A stretch of DNA of 64,000 nt from Olsenella uli (GTDB lineage: Bacteria; Actinomycetota; Coriobacteriia; Coriobacteriales; Atopobiaceae). This document shows, one piece after another, positions 10,857-59,421 of the stretch; the first letter of the stretch is position 1; each line of letters opens with the position of its first letter. Made by a program: the position numbers and the translations under genes. Location of the stretch: positions 1-64,000 of the forward strand of contig NZ_JACJKN010000013.1 of assembly GCF_016900775.1 (NCBI RefSeq), given 5' to 3'. The notes under the pieces are model-generated. The model was not told the origin of the DNA. It saw only the letters and a program-made list of their open reading frames with translations, and ran no database searches.

Positions 10857-10956
10857 GCCAGCTCCTTTGAACGGGGAATCGATGTCTCGATTCTACCGGA
10901 GAGGAGCTAGACGAAGGTCTGAGACGCCCCCTTGACGGCGGTGCGCGGGCATGCGC

Positions 10957-11086
10957 TCCGTTTCTAGGTGTTTTTTGATGGGCGCTTCGGGTACAGCCTC
11001 TCAACCCCATCACAAAACCCCAGGTCACGAAATGCTATAGGATAAGCAGCACTTGAATCTCCCGCCGAAAAACACCTAGAAACGGA
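10957..11086. mobile_element. MITE-like element with 19-bp terminal inverted repeats
   Basis: TCCGTTTCTAGGTGTTTTT at 10957-10975 is an exact inverted copy of 11068-11086, with 92 nt between. Complementarity continues inward imperfectly for about nine more bases (mainly transitions). The interior is less GC-rich than the neighbours and has no convincing gene. The right repeat contains the TAG stop of rsmJ. No clear target duplication is visible. Alternatively it is a long-range terminator structure. Confidence 0.55.
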
Positions 11087-11783
11087 CCGCTGTGTGCTCG
11101 GCCGGCCCCCCGTTGCCCCGCGGCGGCACGATGACGTCATAGCGCACGGCCTTGCCCGCAACGGAATGGCTCGGCCTGGTGCCGGCGAGCCAGGGCCCCT
11201 TGGGCGGCCGCTTGATGACGACCTTCCGCGGGCGCACCGCCAGTGCGGCCCCCAGCAGCTCCTCCTCGTTGTCGCACGGCCGCTCGAGGTGGTGCAGGAG
11301 CTGGAACTTCTTCTTCACCGCCGCGCTCTTGGTGCGCCCGGGAAACATCGGGTCGAGAAACACCACGTCGGGCGAGAAGCCCAGCGCGTGCAGGCCGGGG
11401 ACCGAATCGCCCTCCACAAGCGTCATGCGCGCGACGACGCCCGCGAGCCGAGGATCGCGGGCCGCCCGTTCGAGCGCGTCGCGCAGGAGTGCGGCGATCA
11501 CCGGGTCCTGCTCGAACATCGTGACCGTAAACCCCGCCGCCGCCAGAAGCAACGAGTCCTCCCCGAGCCCCGCCGTGGCGTCAACGACGCATGGATCAGA
11601 GACGCCGCGCACGCGAGCCGCGCGCACGAGCAGCTCGCGCCCCAGGCGGTCCGGGCGCAGCCGGGGCAGCAGGCGCGCGAAATCTGCTCGCAGCACCATG
11701 CCGTCACCCACGAGCGCAAGCCCCTCGGCGTCGCGCCGCAGCTCGACGCCCCCCTCGCCCGTCATGGCAGGATCATCTCCCAT
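11076..11783 (-). CDS. rsmJ: 16S rRNA m2G1516 methyltransferase RsmJ-like
   Basis: A 235-residue class I methyltransferase. 'VVDATAGLGEDSLLLAAAGF' is the SAM-binding motif in the form seen in RsmJ/YhiQ, 'VFLDPMFPGRTKSAAVKKK' matches the family DPMFP..KSA.VKK signature, and 'VVIKRPPKGPWLAG' matches its K-RP motif. RsmJ methylates the 2-amino group of G1516 in E. coli 16S rRNA. I start at ATG 11783 with GGAGGG seven bases upstream; the longer TTG start has no ribosome site. The family is best known from Gammaproteobacteria, so its presence here is notable. The stop codon lies in the terminal repeat of the neighbouring MITE-like element. Confidence 0.82.
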   Translation of the reverse strand: MGDDPAMTGEGGVELRRDAEGLALVGDGMVLRADFARLLPRLRPDRLGRELLVRAARVRGVSDPCVVDATAGLGEDSLLLAAAGFTVTMFEQDPVIAALLRDALERAARDPRLAGVVARMTLVEGDSVPGLHALGFSPDVVFLDPMFPGRTKSAAVKKKFQLLHHLERPCDNEEELLGAALAVRPRKVVIKRPPKGPWLAGTRPSHSVAGKAVRYDVIVPPRGNGGPAEHTAVRF

Positions 11784-17942: not shown

Positions 17943-17972
17943 GCGCGGGGTCGCCTTTGGGCGGCCCCGCGC
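17943..17972 (+). terminator. Hairpin terminator of glmU-prs
   Basis: GCGCGGGG (17943-17950) pairs with CCCCGCGC (17965-17972), and the stem continues inward (CGCC with GGCG) with one mismatch. It lies 67 nt after the prs stop. The right arm runs into the first unit of a 41-bp repeat array. Confidence 0.65.
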
Positions 17973-18194
17973 TTAGTAAAGGCCGGTCACTGCAGATCGA
18001 CGCCGCGTTCCGGTTAGCATATCGGAGTTGTTGCGGCGCAGAAGCCCCTCGGAGACCCGGATTGCCGCCCCAGGATGCCCGTCTGCATAGAAAACGCCGG
18101 CGATTGCGGGCTGGAAGCACGCCCCGGTTGCAACGACCCTCCAATGCTAACACCCTGGCGAGAAGAACCTGCAATGACCCCCAACCACTAACCG
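17970..18194. repeat. Diverged 41-bp-period repeat array A (five units)
   Basis: Five 26-nt units of a common pattern, roughly YGCAAYGACC-N9-CTAACCG, lie in the prs-pth gap. Minus-strand units are at 17970-17995, 18011-18036 and, weaker, 18084-18109. Plus-strand units are at 18128-18153 and 18169-18194. Adjacent units in the two good pairs start exactly 41 bp apart, with 15-nt spacers. The spacer at 18154-18168 contains GGCGAGAAGAAC. Orientation changes from minus to plus in the middle, as in array B at 57.5-57.8 kb. This 386-nt gap shows no gene. Confidence 0.7.
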
Positions 18195-34418: not shown

Positions 34419-34604
34419 GGTGGTTCCTTTCCCTTTTGTGTGAAATCCCCTTCCGCGCGACGCAACCGGAGGGGACCCATTCCCCTCCCCCTTGCAAGCG
34501 GGCGCACCCGATGCGAGAAAGTTACGCGCACGGCATGGGAGGATAGCGCGCCGGCGACCGTCGCGCGAGCTGATAGTATGCTGAGAAACACCGTCGTAAC
34601 GGGT

Positions 34605-34677
34605 GGGCGTGCAAAGGGGACAGGCACTTTTGCACGGTCCCGGGGCGTGCAAAAGTGCCTGTCCCCTTTGCACGCCC
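34605..34677. repeat. Inverted REP pair (REPIN), copies G and H
   Basis: Copy G (34609-34635) and copy H (34647-34673) are exact inverse copies. Including flanks, arms 34605-34636 and 34646-34677 are a perfect 32-bp inverted repeat with a 9-nt loop. A TTTGCACG remnant follows, then the cyuA ribosome site. The intergenic region 34419-34696 shows no gene. Confidence 0.9.
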
Positions 34678-35983: not shown

Positions 35984-35994
35984 ACGCGCAGACC

Positions 35995-36021
35995 GTGCAA
36001 AGGGGACAGGCGCTTTTGCAC
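35995..36021 (+). repeat. 27-nt REP-like palindrome, copy I
   Basis: GTGCAAAGGGGACAGGCGC with TTTTGCAC end, forward orientation, 11 nt after the cyuA stop. One compensating-type change (GGCGC instead of GGCAC) distinguishes it. Confidence 0.85.
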
Positions 36022-36065
36022 GGTTATCGACGCCTTGGAGGGGTAGGCTCATCTCGCCAGAACGT

Positions 36066-36178
36066 CCGCAACCTGCACGTCCGAAACTACGTGCAGGTTG
36101 CGGTCGGTTCTTCTGGTCAAAGTGACCACAACCAGCACGCTCCGGAACTACGTGCGAGTTCTGGTCGGTTCTTCTCGG
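36066..36178. repeat. Two tandem hairpin units ending in GGTCGGTTCTTCT
   Basis: CCGCAACCTGCACGT (36066-36080) pairs perfectly with 36089-36103 and is followed by GGTCGGTTCTTCT. A second, diverged unit 61 nt on has a similar AACTACGTGC loop and the same GGTCGGTTCTTCTCG ending. The ends carry the inverse of GAGAAGAACC. Located between palindromes I and J in a 223-nt gap without a gene. Confidence 0.65.
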
Positions 36179-36191
36179 CAAGGCGTCAAGC

Positions 36192-36218
36192 GTGCAAAAG
36201 TGCCTGTCACTTTTGCAC
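36192..36218 (-). repeat. 27-nt REP-like palindrome, copy J
   Basis: GTGCAAAAGTGCCTGTCAC with TTTTGCAC end. It supplies the TGA stop (36207-36209) and the last three residues, VQK, of the TsaB-RimI-TsaD fusion. Confidence 0.85.
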
Positions 36219-38663
36219 GGTCCACACGGGCGGGACGGGGGCGTCGGGCGTGGACCAGGTGCCGAGCGGCGCGTTGGGGTCCGCGTCCAGCGTGAGGGGC
36301 GAGAAGGACCCGGCGTTGTAGCTTCTGAGCGCCGCGATGCCGATCATCGCCGCGTTGTCGCCGCAGGCGCGCATGGGCGGCACGGTCACGCGCACGCCGC
36401 GCTTCTCCAGCGCCGCCTTGTACGCCGCGCGCAGGCCCGGGTTGGCCGCCACGCCACCGCCGACGCAGAAGTCCGTCACGCCGGTCTCCTCCACCGCGGT
36501 CACCGCCTTGGCCACCTGCACGTCAATGACCGCGGCCTCGAAGCTCGCCGCAAGGTCGGGCAGGTTGATCGCACGGCCGGCGCGGTTCTCGCCCTCGATG
36601 TAGGTGATAACGGCGGTCTTGAGGCCGGAGAGACTGAAGCTGTAGTCCCCGCTGTGCATCATCGCGCGCGGGAAGTGGATGGCGCGCGGGTTACCCTGCG
36701 CGGAGAGCTTGGAGATCACGGGGCCGCCGGGGTATCCCAGGCCGAGCGCCTTGGCCACCTTGTCGAAGGCCTCGCCCACCGCGTCGTCGATCGTGGCGCC
36801 CAGGAGCACGTAGTCGCCCCAGGCGCGCACGTGCACGAGCATGGTGTTGCCGCCGGAGACGATGCTCGCCACGAAGGGCGGCTCGAGGTCCGGCGTCTCG
36901 AAGAGGTTGGCCATGAGGTGGCCCTCGAGATGGTGCACGGCAATGAGCGGCAAGTCGGCGGCCGCGCAGAGGCCCTTGGCAAAGGCCACGCCCACCACGA
37001 GCGCACCCACCAGGCCCGGCCCCGCCGTCACGCCCACAGCCGCGAGGTCCGAAGGCGCCAGCGTGTCCACGCCGAAGTGCTCTCCGGCGCGCGCGAGCGT
37101 CTCCTCGAAGACGCCCACGATGGCCTCGGTGTGCTTGCGGGAGGCAATCTCGGGCACCACGCCGCCAAAGCGCGCGTGGAAGTCGATCTGCGTGGCCACG
37201 ACGCTCGCGCACACCACGCCATGGGAGTCGGTCACGGCCATGGCGGTCTCGTCGCAGGAGGACTCGATCGTAAGGATGAGCGGGCCAGCCGCCGCCAGCG
37301 CGGCCGCGGCCTCGGGCGTGCGCTCGCCGGGCACGATGGGCCACGGGCGGATGGAGGGCGCGGGCTCCGGACGACCGGTCGCGATGACGGCGTCCGCCGC
37401 GAGCGGCAGCGGCGCGCGCAGGATGAGCGCATCGTGGCCGGCGCCGTAGTAGCCCGGGCGACGGCCCTCCTCCACAAGGCCAAGCGCACCGTAGAGCGCG
37501 CGGGCGGGCTCGTTCTTGTCGTCAACCTCAAGCGAGATCGTCTGCGCGCCGAGCATCTGCGCGTCGTAGGCCACGCGCGCCACGAGGCGTGTGGCGATGC
37601 CCTCGCGCCGGCGCGCCGCGTCCACGACAACCTCCTCGACCTCGAAGTCGGCGCCGGCGAGCACGCCGCCCGCAAAGCCGATGACGGTCCCCTGGTCATG
37701 CGCGACCCACCAGCTGCGACCGGGCTGGGAGAGCTCCTCGTAGAACATCTTCTCCGTCCACGGCGTGTGCGCCGCGCCCTCGTAGGCGGCCGCCTCGAGC
37801 GCGGCCACGGCGGCGGTATCGTTCACCGTCATGGGGCGCAGCTGCAGGTGGATGCCCGCAAGCGCGTCGTCCACGCCGGTGAGCTCGACGGACGCCGGCT
37901 TCTTGAGGCCAAGGCGCGTGCGCTCCGCCTCCTCGGCGTCAGAGAGGCGCGTGTAGATGGGCAGGACCAGCGCCGGGTCGCCGGGCTGCTCGTCAAAGAC
38001 CCCAGCCTCCACGGCAGCCCGCAAGAGCCCCTCGCCCGTGGGGTACCACGCCCTCTCGGGCGAGAAGGACGCGAGCCCCGCGGCCTCAAAGCGGGCGCGG
38101 TACTTGGCCAGGCCGTTGCCCGTGAGCGTAAGCCCGGCGGCATCGGCCCGCTCCGCCCACGCGGCCACGCAGGCATCCGCCTTGAGCACGGTCTCGGCCG
38201 GGAAGGTGCGGTGCGCACCGGCCTCGTCAAGCTCGTAGATGCCGGGATAGACCTCGCCGCGCATGGCGTCTCCCGCCACGGCGAGCACGCCGCGCGCGCC
38301 CGCGGACCACGCCGACCACGCCATCGCGTCGAGCGCGGAGGTGCCATAGAGCGGAAGCCCCGCGCCGCACGCAAGGCCCTTGGCCGTGGCAATGCCAATC
38401 CGCACGCCCGTGAACGAGCCCGGGCCACGCCCCACGAGCACGGCGTCCAGGTCGCCCATCGCAAGGCCCGCGTCGGCGAGCGCCTGCTGCGCCGTGGTCA
38501 CCAGCTCCACGTTGGCCTGACGGCGACACATATGGTCGCGCGCGGCCAGCACCGTCACGGCTCCGTCCGCGCCCACGCGCCCGACGGCGCAGGCCAGCAT
38601 GTCCGTAGAGGTGTCTATGGCCAGGACGATCTTCTCGGCGGTCTCGAGGTTCTTCTCGCTCAT
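36207..38663 (-). CDS. tsaB-rimI-tsaD: TsaB-RimI-TsaD triple fusion (t6A37 tRNA modification plus N-acetyltransferase)
   Basis: An 818-residue protein joining three normally separate proteins. Residues about 10-240 are TsaB ('LAIDTSTDMLACAVGR', 'RGPGSFTGVRIGIATAKGLA'). Residues about 275-420 are a RimI-type GNAT acetyltransferase ('VEEVVVDAARRREGIATRLV'). From about 455 on is TsaD ('LTIESSCDETAMAV', metal-binding 'VHHLEGHLMANL', 'VSGGNTMLV', 'SFSLSGLKTAV'). TsaB and TsaD transfer threonylcarbamoyl to A37 of ANN-decoding tRNAs together with TsaE, encoded at 51.0-51.5 kb. RimI acetylates ribosomal protein S18. The three genes are neighbours in many actinobacteria, so fusion is a natural step. 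ATG 38663 has only a weak ribosome site. The C-terminus runs into palindrome J. Confidence 0.93.
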   Translation of the reverse strand: MSEKNLETAEKIVLAIDTSTDMLACAVGRVGADGAVTVLAARDHMCRRQANVELVTTAQQALADAGLAMGDLDAVLVGRGPGSFTGVRIGIATAKGLACGAGLPLYGTSALDAMAWSAWSAGARGVLAVAGDAMRGEVYPGIYELDEAGAHRTFPAETVLKADACVAAWAERADAAGLTLTGNGLAKYRARFEAAGLASFSPERAWYPTGEGLLRAAVEAGVFDEQPGDPALVLPIYTRLSDAEEAERTRLGLKKPASVELTGVDDALAGIHLQLRPMTVNDTAAVAALEAAAYEGAAHTPWTEKMFYEELSQPGRSWWVAHDQGTVIGFAGGVLAGADFEVEEVVVDAARRREGIATRLVARVAYDAQMLGAQTISLEVDDKNEPARALYGALGLVEEGRRPGYYGAGHDALILRAPLPLAADAVIATGRPEPAPSIRPWPIVPGERTPEAAAALAAAGPLILTIESSCDETAMAVTDSHGVVCASVVATQIDFHARFGGVVPEIASRKHTEAIVGVFEETLARAGEHFGVDTLAPSDLAAVGVTAGPGLVGALVVGVAFAKGLCAAADLPLIAVHHLEGHLMANLFETPDLEPPFVASIVSGGNTMLVHVRAWGDYVLLGATIDDAVGEAFDKVAKALGLGYPGGPVISKLSAQGNPRAIHFPRAMMHSGDYSFSLSGLKTAVITYIEGENRAGRAINLPDLAASFEAAVIDVQVAKAVTAVEETGVTDFCVGGGVAANPGLRAAYKAALEKRGVRVTVPPMRACGDNAAMIGIAALRSYNAGSFSPLTLDADPNAPLGTWSTPDAPVPPVWTVQK

Positions 38664-55542: not shown

Positions 55543-57393
55543 CTACTCGACGGTCACGGACTTCGCGAGGTTGCGCGGCTTGTCCACGTCGCAGCCGCGC
55601 GTCCGAGCCACATAGCGCGCGAGGATCTGCAGGTGCACCACCGCCACGATGGGGACGAGCAGCTCGTCTGCCACCGGCGGGATCCACAGGACGTGCTCGA
55701 CGAGCGAGGCCACCGCCTCGTCGCCGTCCGTGGCAACCGCCACGCACGTGGCGCCGCGCGCGATGACCTCCTGGATGTTGGAGACGGTCTTGTCGTGCAC
55801 GCGGTCGGCCGGCACGATGGCGACCACCGGGAAGCCCGGCTCGAGCAGGGCGATGGGCCCGTGCTTCATCTCGCCCGCCGGATAGGCCTCGGCGTGCAGG
55901 TAGCTGATCTCCTTGAGCTTGAGCGACCCCTCGTAGGCCGTCGTGGCGTTGACGCCGCGGCCGAGGAAGAGCGCCGAGTGCGCGCGGCGGAAGACCACGG
56001 CAGCGCGCTTGTCCTGCCAGGAGCGCGAGATGACCTCGCGGATGAGGTCCGGGAGGGTGCAGAGGTCGCGGTAGTGGCGCCCCACCTCGGGCAGGTCCAT
56101 CTGCCGCTTGGCCTGGGCGAGGCGCAGGGCGAGAAGGGCGCTCGCCACCATCTGCGCGGTATAGGCCTTGGTGGACGCCACGCAGACCTCCGGCCCCGCC
56201 TGGACGTAGAGCACGCCGTCGGCCTCGCGCGCGGCCGTGGAGCCGAGCACGTTGGTCACGGCAAAGACCTTGCAGCCCATCCCCCTCATACGCCGCGCCG
56301 CGGTGAGGGTGTCCGCCGTCTCGCCCGACTGCGTGATGATCACGCAGAGGGTGTGCGGCGTCACGAGCACGTCCTGCTCGTAGTTGAACTCGGAGGCGTA
56401 GTCGCAGATGACGGGAACCTTGGCCCAGGTCTGGATGAGGGTGCGCGCGATGAGGCTCACGTGATAGGACGTGCCGCACGCGATGAGGTAGACGCGGTCG
56501 ATGGCCGCAAGCTCGCGCTCGCTCATGGAGAGCTCGTCGAGCACGATGCCCTTCTCGCCGAGGCGGCCGGAGAGCAGCCGCTCGATGGCCTCGGGCTGCT
56601 CGGCGATCTCCTTGGCCATGAAGTCGGCATAGCCGCCGAGCGTCGCCGCGGAGGCGTCCCAGTCAATGTCCACCGTCGTGGGGGCGTCCACTACGAGGCC
56701 CTCCTCGTCGTAGACGGTCACGGCGCCGCCCTGCTCGAGGCGGGCAAACTGGCCGTTCTCGAGCTGGATCACGTGGGAGGTCACGCCCGCGAGCGGGGTC
56801 ACGTCCGAGGCGGCGTAGGCCCCCCGCTCCGTCGAGGCCACCACGAGCGGCGAGCCGTTGCGGACGCAGACGATCTCGCCGGGGGCGTCGGCGCACACGA
56901 CGGCGAGCGCCCACGAGCCCCTGAGCCGGCGGCACGCGTGGCGCACGGCGGTCACGAGGTCGCCCCTGCAGGGGCCCGCCCACGCGTCCTCGATGAGGTG
57001 GGCGATCACCTCGGAGTCCGTGTCGGAGACGAGCGTGTGGCCGATCCGCTGCAGATAGCCGCGCAGCTCGCGGAAGTTCTCGATGATGCCGTTGTGCACG
57101 ATGGCGATGCGGCCCGTGCAGTCGCGGTGCGGGTGGGAGTTCTTGTCCGTGGGGGCGCCGTGCGTGGCCCAGCGGGTGTGCGCGATGCCGCAGGTCCCCA
57201 CGAGGTTCGCGGTCTCGCAGCGCTCGACGAGCGTGGCCACGCGACCTGCGCACTTGACGCCATGCAGCTCGCCGTCTGCGCCTACGACCTCGACGCCGGC
57301 GGAGTCGTAGCCGCGGTACTCGAGGGTGGAGAGGCCTTCGAGCAGGTAGCCAACCGCCTGGTCACGCCCGGTGTAGCCCACGATTCCGCACAT
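55543..57393 (-). CDS. glmS: Glutamine--fructose-6-phosphate aminotransferase (isomerising)
   Basis: A 616-residue GlmS. 'MCGIVGYTGRDQAVGYLLEG' provides the nucleophile Cys after Met removal; 'HTRWATHGAPTDKNSHPH' and 'HNGIIENFRELR' are glutaminase signatures. Two SIS domains follow with 'ACGTSYHVSLIARTLI', 'ITQSGETADTL' and 'GRGVNATTAYEGSLKLKEIS', ending 'KPRNLAKSVTVE'. It makes glucosamine-6-phosphate, the entry to UDP-GlcNAc. ATG 57393 has GAGGAGG five bases upstream. No glmS ribozyme consensus is evident in the 569-nt gap upstream, which instead holds repeat array B. Confidence 0.96.
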   Translation of the reverse strand: MCGIVGYTGRDQAVGYLLEGLSTLEYRGYDSAGVEVVGADGELHGVKCAGRVATLVERCETANLVGTCGIAHTRWATHGAPTDKNSHPHRDCTGRIAIVHNGIIENFRELRGYLQRIGHTLVSDTDSEVIAHLIEDAWAGPCRGDLVTAVRHACRRLRGSWALAVVCADAPGEIVCVRNGSPLVVASTERGAYAASDVTPLAGVTSHVIQLENGQFARLEQGGAVTVYDEEGLVVDAPTTVDIDWDASAATLGGYADFMAKEIAEQPEAIERLLSGRLGEKGIVLDELSMSERELAAIDRVYLIACGTSYHVSLIARTLIQTWAKVPVICDYASEFNYEQDVLVTPHTLCVIITQSGETADTLTAARRMRGMGCKVFAVTNVLGSTAAREADGVLYVQAGPEVCVASTKAYTAQMVASALLALRLAQAKRQMDLPEVGRHYRDLCTLPDLIREVISRSWQDKRAAVVFRRAHSALFLGRGVNATTAYEGSLKLKEISYLHAEAYPAGEMKHGPIALLEPGFPVVAIVPADRVHDKTVSNIQEVIARGATCVAVATDGDEAVASLVEHVLWIPPVADELLVPIVAVVHLQILARYVARTRGCDVDKPRNLAKSVTVE

Positions 57394-57520
57394 GCGGACC
57401 TCCTCATGGTTGGGTGCGTTTGAGTCACGTGCCCTGATTGTACCAGTGCCGCCATACCCCGCCCGCAACAGACCCGGAAACCGCGTCATGCCGTAACAGT
57501 GCGGCCACCTCCGCGCCGGG

Positions 57521-57807
57521 CCGTTAGGGAACCGCGGCAGTTGCAGCCGCGGGACCGCCCCGCGTTAGTGAGCCGCGGTCGTTGCAGCCATCGCTGCCCC
57601 CGGGGTTAAAAACGCGGGCTTGCTGCATCACATCGGGCCGCGGGCGGCCCGTTCTTCTCGCCCATGTGGCGAGAAGAACCTCGCGGGTGCGCCCCGCGCC
57701 TGCAATGACGGGCGGTTTTTAACCCTCGCCCATCCAGGCGCCGCAACGACCCCGCTTTCCTAACCGCCGGGCGCGGAAGACGCGCAACGACCGCAATTCT
57801 CTAATCG
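57521..57807. repeat. Diverged 41-bp-period repeat array B, inverted around a central hairpin
   Basis: Three minus-strand 26-nt units (57521-57546, 57562-57587, 57603-57628) and three plus-strand units (57700-57725, 57741-57766, 57782-57807) share the pattern YGCAACGACC-N9-CTAACCG. All neighbouring units start exactly 41 bp apart. The two triplets point outward from the centre at about 57665, where GTTCTTCTCGCC and GGCGAGAAGAAC form a perfect 12-bp hairpin. Units match array A at 17.97-18.2 kb. No gene is visible in 57394-57962. Confidence 0.78.
57651..57679. repeat. Central inverted pair of GGCGAGAAGAAC in array B
   Basis: GTTCTTCTCGCC (57651-57662) and GGCGAGAAGAAC (57668-57679) are exact inverse copies with a 5-nt loop. 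It is directly next to another hairpin, GGGCCGC/GCGGCCC at 57635-57650. Confidence 0.8.
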
Positions 57808-57870
57808 GCCGCGGCCCACCCCGCGCGGGCGCGTCGCCAATCCCCCGCACGGCGCCCCTGCGGGGCGCGC

Positions 57871-57936
57871 GCGACGTTTTGCGCCCAAGAAACGTCGCGA
57901 GTCCCCCGCGCAACGCCTCTGCGGGGGACTCGCGAC
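57871..57936 (-). terminator. Two mutually exclusive hairpins after glmM
   Basis: GCGACGTTT (57871-57879) pairs with AAACGTCGC (57890-57898). The second stem, 16 bp, pairs 57894-57909 with 57921-57936. Bases 57894-57898 belong to both, so only one can form at a time. They follow the glmM stop within 27 nt. Confidence 0.6.
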
Positions 57937-57962
57937 ATCCTTGCGGCGTGAGGCCGGCCTTC

Positions 57963-59300
57963 CTACGCGCGGAACTTCTCCAGGGCGTCCAGCACGAAGG
58001 CGTTGGCCCGCTTGCAGAGCTCGTCAGTGGGCGCCTCGGCGAGGGTGCGCACCAGAGGCTCGGTGCCGGAGGCGCGCACGAGCACGCGACCCCGCCCGGC
58101 GAGGAACTCCTCGGCCTTCTTGACGGCCGCGAGCACGCCCTCGTCGGACATGGCGGCGTCCTTGTCCGTCACGCGTACGTTCACGAGCTCCTGGGGATAG
58201 AGCTTCACCGGCGCGGCAAGCTGCGAGAGCTTCTCGCGCTCCGCGCGGTAGACCTCCATCACACGCAGCGACGTCATGATGCCGTCGCCCGTGCACTCGA
58301 TGTCGCCGAAGATGATGTGGCCGGACTGCTCGCCGCCCAGGCTGTAGCCGTTCTCGCGCATGCAGGCGTAGACGTTCTTGTCGCCCACGGCGGTGGTCTC
58401 GTAGGAGAGGCTCGCCTCGTCGAGCGCCTTGAACAGGCCGTAGTTGCTCATGACGGTGGGCACCACGGTGCCGGCCGTGAGGCGGCCGTGCTTGTTGAGG
58501 TAGACGCCACAGATGTAGAGGATGAGATCGCCGTCGATCACGTTGCCGCGCTCGTCCACGGCAAGGCAGCGGTCGGCGTCGCCGTCGTAGGCAAAGCCCA
58601 CGTCAAGGCCCTGCTCCACCACGTGACGGCGCAGGCGGTCAATGTGGGTGGACCCGCAGTCCACGTTGATGTTGAAGCCGTCGGGGCTGTTGTTGATCAC
58701 GCGGACGTCGGCGCCCAGCGCGTCGAAGACGGGCTTGGCGACGGACGACGCCGCGCCGTTGGCGCAGTCCAGGCCGACCTTCACGCCCTGGAGCGAGAAG
58801 TTCGCGCTCGCGATGAGGTGGGCGATGTAGCGGTTGCGCCCCTGCATGTAGTCCACGGTGCAGCCGATGGCGTCGCCGGTGGCGAGCGGCACGTCGACCT
58901 CGCCGTCGATGTAGGACTCGATCTTCTCCAGGACGTCCTCGTCCATCTTGTAGCCCTCGCCGTTCACGAGCTTGATGCCGTTGTCGGTGTAGGGGTTATG
59001 GGAGGCCGAGATCATGATGCCGCAGTCGAAGCGGCCGTCCACGGTCTCGTACGCCACGCCGGGCGTGGGGATGACGTGCAGCAGGTAGGCGTCGGCGCCG
59101 GACGCCACGAGGCCAGCCACGAGCGCGGACTCGAACATGTAGCTCGAGCGGCGCGTGTCCTTGCCCACCACCACGCGCGCCTTGCGGTCCTGGCGCGCGC
59201 CGTAGTACCAGCCCACAAAGCGGCCGATCTTGAAGGCGTGCTCGACGTCGAGCCCCTCGTTCGCGCGGCCGCGGAAGCCGTCGGTGCCGAAGTACTTCAT
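57963..59300 (-). CDS. glmM: Phosphoglucosamine mutase
   Basis: A 445-residue GlmM that interconverts glucosamine-6- and -1-phosphate. It starts 'MKYFGTDGFRGRANEGLDVE'. The phosphoserine loop 'GIMISASHNPYTDNG' has Ser100 as catalytic residue. The metal-binding loop is 'FAYDGDADRCLAVDERG', the sugar loop 'LGGEQSGHII' and the phosphate-binding loop 'VLVRASGTEPLVRTLAE'. ATG 59300 has AAGGGG six bases upstream. It follows rplM-rpsI and precedes glmS, an order typical of actinobacteria, and is separated from glmS by repeat array B. Confidence 0.96.
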   Translation of the reverse strand: MKYFGTDGFRGRANEGLDVEHAFKIGRFVGWYYGARQDRKARVVVGKDTRRSSYMFESALVAGLVASGADAYLLHVIPTPGVAYETVDGRFDCGIMISASHNPYTDNGIKLVNGEGYKMDEDVLEKIESYIDGEVDVPLATGDAIGCTVDYMQGRNRYIAHLIASANFSLQGVKVGLDCANGAASSVAKPVFDALGADVRVINNSPDGFNINVDCGSTHIDRLRRHVVEQGLDVGFAYDGDADRCLAVDERGNVIDGDLILYICGVYLNKHGRLTAGTVVPTVMSNYGLFKALDEASLSYETTAVGDKNVYACMRENGYSLGGEQSGHIIFGDIECTGDGIMTSLRVMEVYRAEREKLSQLAAPVKLYPQELVNVRVTDKDAAMSDEGVLAAVKKAEEFLAGRGRVLVRASGTEPLVRTLAEAPTDELCKRANAFVLDALEKFRA

Positions 59301-59421
59301 GGTATCCCCTTCCCCGAGGCCACCGCAGCCGACGGCGGCCAAGTGGTCTGCACTAAAAGACCCACTCATTGTTGCATAAATAGGGGGCGGGGGACGCCCT
59401 CTTGCCGCTTGCGCTCGAAAT

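Follow-up and report, generated by a model that had tools for sequence, protein, structure and literature searches.

The window, a 64 kb stretch of the genome of the gut bacterium Olsenella uli (G000), includes a 569 bp gap (57394-57962) between glmS (55543-57393) and glmM (57963-59369), which are both on the minus strand and have names that agree with Pfam. This gap holds an array of six 26-nt units, three on the minus strand followed by three on the plus strand, with starts exactly 41 bp apart in each triplet. The left arm consists of the outer unit L1 (57521-57546), L2 (57562-57587) and the inner unit L3 (57603-57628), which is the most diverged of the six, and the right arm of the inner unit R1 (57700-57725), R2 (57741-57766) and the outer unit R3 (57782-57807). 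The unit consensus is [CT]GCAACGACC[CG]C[CG][AG]TT[CT][CT]CTAA[CG][CG], and the 15 bp linkers between units carry little signal beyond base composition. The inner gap of 71 bp (57629-57699), which sets the inner starts 97 bp apart and thereby on the 10.5 bp ladder described below, contains a perfect 12 bp hairpin (57651-57679) with arms GTTCTTCTCGCC (57651-57662) and GGCGAGAAGAAC (57668-57679), centred one base off the centre of the array. A terminator-like perfect 16 bp hairpin on the minus strand just after glmM (57894-57936) is outside the array, and nearly the same hairpin is found in G012, which has no array here.

The first-pass annotation had described six units in an inverted array with 41 bp starts around the hairpin, and it is now clear that this array is real. 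A profile that drew on 122 units from 27 clusters outside the window recovered all six units with scores of 26.6 (L1), 28.3 (L2), 18.7 (L3), 20.6 (R1), 35.0 (R2) and 30.0 (R3). Even the weakest exceeds 15.1, the best score among 1000 dinucleotide shuffles of the gap. The only other profile matches scoring at least 12 in the 64 kb are five units of a second array of the same family (17970-18194), with minus units at 17970, 18011 and 18084 and plus units at 18128 and 18169. This array, which is taken to be the 'array A' of the first-pass annotation, is flanked by genes for ribose-phosphate pyrophosphokinase and peptidyl-tRNA hydrolase (Pfam). An inverted repeat at 10953-11090, with the core AAACCCCAGGTC at 11015, has the same layout and another arm sequence, with one different unit per arm.

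The comparison covered 31 genomes, G000 included, of one genus of the Atopobiaceae (Thermophilibacter or close to it). A model based on unit sequence alone matches at least 128 places in G000 at E values up to 5, and the G000 unit counts are lower bounds, as 150 of the 1343 first-look candidates were scored. The G000 stretches that were read contain 29 clusters of two or more units, 28 with minus units on the left and plus units on the right and one reversed. Also seen were two half arrays that run into contig ends beside sequence that looks IS256-like by eye, one more reversed pair and some isolated single units. At E values up to 0.2, there are at least 98 matches in G000, 30 in G004, 25 in G040, 23 in G042, 10 in G022, 7 in G015, 6 in G020 and 4 in G007, with 1 to 3 in nine further genomes and none in 14 of the 31, 150 candidates being scored per genome. 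When named genomes were scanned for a pattern of two units, 17 loci were detected, 15 in the Thermophilibacter group and 2 as single matches in unrelated MAGs. The viral contigs, plasmids and phages searched gave no match to the units, and a phage or plasmid origin was rejected on these grounds.

Neighbouring units of the same arm are 41 bp apart in 60 of 75 cases in G000 and 42 bp apart in 6, the other nine spacings being 32, 52, 62, 72, 73 or 82 bp. In the other species, 42 bp is the usual value (85 of 105), with 41 bp in 18 cases and 43 and 52 bp once each, and the spacing noted in the window is therefore kept in relatives at 41-42 bp. The distances between inner left and inner right starts include 34, 44, 55, 65, 76, 86, 97, 107, 118, 128, 138, 160 and 180 bp. 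They follow a period of 10.52 bp in G000 (R 0.933, n = 28), 10.54 bp in the other species (R 0.887, n = 38) and 10.52 bp when pooled (R 0.906, n = 66), and none of 2000 random sets was as periodic in any of the three comparisons. Recognised orthologues had been dropped from this set, in which at least two orthologous pairs (L136/L138 and L041/L025) remained, and R was still 0.85 at 10.5 bp when each distinct value was used once. The centres of a further orthologous pair, L172 and L183, measure 118 and 108 bp, differing by exactly 10 bp or one helical turn.

Because the arm distances lie on a 10.5 bp ladder, the array appears to act as B-form DNA with proteins on one face and not as RNA. Such phasing is not expected of neutral relics or of RNA loops, since neither need follow the turn of the DNA. 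The ladder lends strong support to the proposal of the first-pass annotation that this is a nucleoprotein assembly site whose proteins lie on one face, and from the spacing we infer, with high confidence, that the arrays are phased protein sites on DNA.

The genomic setting was described for fifty arrays of at least three units that have a called gene on both sides, using our own codon-score gene caller. Overlap with called genes amounts to 14 of 12416 array bases. The array gaps are tandem in 29 cases, convergent in 16 and divergent in 5, compared with 168, 48 and 75 in the background, such that convergent gaps are enriched (p 0.017), divergent gaps are depleted (p 0.018) and tandem gaps do not differ (p 1). 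From some 56 neighbouring genes in G000, 20 were chosen by hand and scanned against Pfam. They predict an OPT transporter, UvrD, an aldolase, Kup, OTC, S1, an aminotransferase, PhoH, RsmB, DnaX, glutamine synthetase, LeuRS, Fe-ADH, Ppx, an alpha-amylase-family enzyme, SerRS, RsgA, a HAD protein and two transposases, and no common pathway was found among these 20. Relative to the position of dnaA, the arrays showed no clear pattern along the replication axis when judged by eye. Transposase genes of the IS110, IS3 and IS256 types are located in or beside arrays (L113 6584-7669, L042 1433-2869, L035 11148-12356 and L036 3760-4920; Pfam), and the ends of the G000 contigs C65 and C21, near arrays, carry sequence that looks IS256-like by eye.

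Arrays come and go between relatives. The glmM-glmS gap was measurable in 13 of 15 genomes of the genus and carries units of the family in G000 only (1 of 13). It has no array in G012, the nearest relative by GlmS (97% identical), nor in T. provencensis, where the flanks are 91-93% identical. A role in glmS regulation was rejected, as 12 of the 13 genomes with a measurable gap keep glmS without family units there. T. provencensis also lacks the array between prs and pth and the first array of L047, and shares the second L047 array. An array-bearing query from the leuS locus was matched in full in three genomes, by one or both flanks only in 26, and not at all in 2. The gap upstream of leuS is hypervariable in the genus, ranging from ∼60 bp (G009) to ∼7 kb (G007) between the flank matches. 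At L166/L176, the array is complete in S24M but reduced to a single unit in T. gallinarum.

In five pairs of orthologous arrays from T. gallinarum and S24M, the positions to be treated as conserved were set in advance using the G000 logo. Differences affect 23 of 336 such positions and 104 of the 826 remaining array positions (p 0.0037). The flanks, with 96 of 982 positions differing, fall between the two classes. With three more pairs included, the counts are 40 of 560 conserved positions and 103 of 674 inner positions (p 7e-6), in a set that uses one locus twice and includes one pair with no differences inside the array. When positions were taken from the profile of the other species themselves, 14 of 286 differ against 56 of 441 inner positions. 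The slower change at conserved unit positions suggests that the arrays are in use where they lie and are not dead copies.

A core, AAACCSCAGKTG, occupies the array centre in T. gallinarum, S24M and some others, in either orientation. The best-matching 12-mer was taken from each of 27 inner gaps, and the 25 with no more than two mismatches were used to measure its distance to the arms. The values are 50, 59-60, 70-71, 81 or 91 bp on one side and 36, 48, 57-58 or 69 bp on the other, and the core is in phase with both arms (R 0.97 on each side in 25 of 27 inner gaps, several of them orthologous among themselves). As a bare word, the core is enriched in G004 (11 exact copies versus 0 for the control), G019 (12 versus 3) and G015 (9 versus 2) and is not enriched in G000 (2 versus 3), with 113 versus 50, about twice the control, in the 31 genomes of the genus.

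Other arm families surround the same core. Among 20 exact core sites picked by hand (8 in G019, 5 in G001, 4 in G024 and 3 in G015), 15 lie within inverted repeats that score above all of 60 shuffles each, and five do not. Two of these 15 belong to the present unit family; the arms of the rest are unrelated to it, and G019 alone has several kinds. The spacing of the unrelated units is 40 + 40 bp in two G024 arrays and one G015 array, and 40 or 41 bp in two G019 arrays. It is also 40 + 40 bp in three arrays of T. provencensis (G022) with the unit TGCAATC..GG..GGATAGTGTGAA, the third of which has an IS110-type gene inside (Pfam; a family-B array) and no exact core. In G012, one unit family is spaced at 40 or 41 bp, with some at 43 and one at 53 bp, and another at ∼30 bp. 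It may be that geometry rather than sequence is inherited, in the form of the core AAACCSCAGKTG and two opposed arms with sites about four helical turns apart in one helical phase, and we tentatively propose that this defines a new class of dispersed element. In such a class the arm sequence could, on equally provisional grounds, have been exchanged from one lineage to another, and in G019 even inside a single genome. The arrays might then be the footprint of a core-plus-arm protein complex with fast-changing arm specificity that has spread through this genus of Actinomycetota, a suggestion we make with more doubt than conviction. An attachment site, one of the roles raised in the first-pass annotation, may still apply if the term is taken loosely to mean arm sites around a core.

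The likeness between copies depends on the species. In the T. gallinarum group, the outer flanks of non-orthologous arrays share nothing, and the linkers are at most slightly more alike than their shuffles (0.36 vs 0.31 and 0.33 vs 0.27). The centres are alike across loci, for example 80% over 85 bp, which indicates that these copies share an origin. When the units of G000 copies are masked, the hairpin word and its immediate surroundings, 19-34 bp in all, are the only parts still alike. Target-site duplications were not found, the longest flank repeat having a mean length of 3.3 in 66 arrays and 3.0 in 200 controls, though old duplications could have decayed. Neither an autonomous copy with the same ends nor a candidate protein was seen in the stretches read.

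The unit also forms the ends of a 104 bp element with a plus unit on the left and a minus unit on the right, the units being 78 bp apart around an inner hairpin, ATCTACCTGC...GCAGGTAGAT, that is perfect or imperfect. Two copies were found in G000 (L043 3601-3704 and L131 3642-3745) and others elsewhere (L168, L192, L195, L202 and L203, the last being 103 bp long), each between convergent genes by our own gene calls. The copies at L043, L192 and L195 are beside different genes and are 90-94% alike over 50-52 inner bases. That the unit can also end a small repeat of this kind favours a mobile reading.

The best overall explanation, to which we give about an even chance, is that the arrays are assembly sites on double-stranded DNA for a putative cooperative DNA-binding protein and make up a dispersed, mobile-like repeat family. 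Each 26 bp unit would be one asymmetric site, and neighbouring units four helical turns apart would align protomers on one face. The arms face away from each other across a centre that varies in length almost entirely in steps of full helical turns, and in related species this centre carries a core site at a fixed phase to both arms. The protein would be expected to bind cooperatively, and bending or looping of the DNA would bring both arms and the core into contact with a single complex. Functionally, the arrays would most likely be small non-autonomous elements of a mobile or recombination type, in which the arms are bound by a transposase- or recombinase-like protein with a specificity that differs by lineage and the core by a conserved part. 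Copies would spread, and disappear again, in gaps where harm is small.

The mobile or recombination-like nature of the family is itself put at just short of an even chance. Against it stand the lack of target-site duplications and of any autonomous copy or candidate protein in what was read, and the G000 linkers and centres, which are unlike between copies save for the short stretches at the hairpin word, where recent transposition should leave full-length likeness. The slower change at conserved unit positions in orthologous arrays counts against it as well. The core also fits the preferred explanation poorly in that it is not enriched in G000 and reaches only about twice the control genus-wide. 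No movement would be needed if the arrays instead served a nucleoid-associated protein as sites for loading or bridging, by which the chromosome is looped or insulated. Loci would turn over because any safe gap suffices. This view is favoured by the slower change of conserved unit positions in place, the phase kept through a 10 bp change in one orthologous pair, the unrelated neighbours (20 scanned) and the enrichment of convergent and depletion of divergent gaps. Site-specific nucleoid proteins that bind phased sites are the comparison here. However, copy number is very uneven in the genus, with at least 98 matches in G000 and none in 14 of 31 genomes, and close species have other unit sequences, which would be odd for a basic chromosome function. 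We consider this architectural role unlikely, though a serious competitor.

The remaining explanations are much less probable. Asymmetric 26 bp sites in phased direct repeats do resemble multi-site operators, and 29 of the 50 arrays are in tandem gaps and hence upstream of one gene. But 16 of the 50 are in convergent gaps and 5 in divergent gaps, the 20 scanned neighbours have no common pathway and relatives keep glmS without the array, such that control of glmS or other neighbours by a transcription factor is improbable. A promoter for an alternative sigma factor also seems unlikely, as the two conserved blocks look too closely spaced for one. Pairing of the arms in a transcript, as a leader or 3′ element, is very improbable, even though the inverted arms of two arrays gave strong folds in silico (-150 and -108 kcal/mol, with no shuffle control) and, in species other than G000, mirrored units resemble each other slightly more than unmirrored units do (0.63 vs 0.57). 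In G000 there is no such excess (0.467 mirrored vs 0.478 unmirrored), an RNA loop has no need of arm-to-arm and core-to-arm distances that follow 10.5 bp, and arrays are found in tandem, convergent and divergent gaps alike. The structured leader RNA of glmS suggested in the first-pass annotation is unsupported on the same points, as arrays lie beside unrelated genes whatever the orientation of the gap, their phasing matches double-stranded DNA, and no Rfam family reached threshold in the gap, four weak matches being far below it. It is scarcely more probable that the arrays were left behind or are targeted by known insertion sequences. Genes of the IS256, IS3 and IS110 types do occur in or beside some arrays, but the ends of these elements, read by eye, are unlike the units, transposases make up 2 of the 20 scanned G000 array neighbours (a third being that in L035), and the arrays keep their own geometry.

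The arrays resemble REPIN/BIME and MITE populations in their dispersal but lack a tested defining feature of each. REP, BIME and REPIN elements, whose cognate enzyme is the Y1 transposase RAYT, are dispersed extragenic elements with inverted sites around a variable spacer and with lineage-specific site sequences on a common layout. The arrays likewise occur in many copies in extragenic gaps and in opposed orientations. REP hairpins were rejected, since the 302 array units fold on average less well than their shuffles (mean -1.5 vs -2.4 kcal/mol). The arrays also differ from REP/BIME in having several units per arm at 40-42 bp and a centre quantised by helical turn. MITEs, including the Tn3-derived miniature elements called TIMEs, are short, non-coding and intergenic with inverted ends, and are present or absent at orthologous loci. 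Inverted outer units and absence from orthologous loci in relatives are features of this type. Unlike MITEs, the arrays have sites in tandem and not solely at the very ends, no target-site duplication or autonomous partner was found for them, and the G000 copies are not near-identical. Likeness beyond short stretches was seen between array centres within the T. gallinarum group and between three of the 104 bp elements. The ends of Mu and Tn7 and lambda-type att sites share tandem arm sites in opposite orientation, a separate core, and helical phase between arms and core. They differ in that no array-specific recombinase gene was seen inside an array, at least 28 copies are present in G000, both arms and an intact core are found at each core-bearing locus, and the 12 bp core has no clear half-sites.

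No description of these arrays or of the word GGCGAGAAGAAC was found in the excerpts returned from the open-licence part of PubMed Central. Dispersed intergenic repeats are common, but we know of none with a helix-quantised layout that is kept across species while the sequence is replaced, and to our knowledge the nucleoid has been little studied in this class of bacteria. A helix-quantised layout makes the geometry of the protein complex predictable. If that complex is a recombinase, it would represent a new mobile system, and if it is architectural, a site-specific organiser of the chromosome.

The central hairpin of the glmS-glmM array is perfect and central, as the first-pass annotation had it, but it is not specific to arrays since the word GGCGAGAAGAAC is dispersed throughout the genome. 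The window contains 11 exact copies, and 37 with no more than one mismatch where 0.46 are expected. There are 325 copies in G000, 84-506 in 29 of the 30 other genomes and 11 in G041, while the reversed-word control gives 0-2. In 20 array-bearing stretches of G000, the density of the word per kb is 4.9 in the inner gaps of arrays, 0.55 in the rest of the intergenic sequence and 0.06 in genes, and 7 of 26 array centres carry it exactly (11 of 26 with no more than one mismatch). All 21 genic sense copies are in frame 0, and 13 more are antisense; the frame bias is a codon effect that leaves the copies in gaps unexplained. Across 120 genomes of 67 genera, strong enrichment of the word is confined to this genus and two genera of the same family (33-61 copies in g18 and 78 in g23), with weak enrichment in three others (6-22 in g25, g27 and g60).

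Being found on both strands and enriched between genes, the word may be uptake-sequence-like or terminator-like. It resembles the uptake sequences of Neisseria and Haemophilus in being a 12 bp word with hundreds of copies on both strands, sometimes in inverted pairs and enriched between genes. A point of difference is G041, where the word has just 11 copies although ComEC is present, as it is in each of the 31 genomes. The word looks strand-polar in G056 of genus g18, where the plus strand carries all 33 copies listed between 34 kb and 1.116 Mb (overall 39 are plus and 22 minus), and in G061 of the same genus it is mostly on the minus strand from 149 to 551 kb and then on the plus strand in every listed copy. 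This polarity may reflect an orienting word or a leading-strand gene bias. Elsewhere in the window, palindromes with GTGCAAAAG..GGGGACAG that look REP-like by eye are located at 34605-34677 and 35991-36222, and an Rfam Corio-PBP RNA is predicted on the minus strand at 34449-34531 (88.5 bits).
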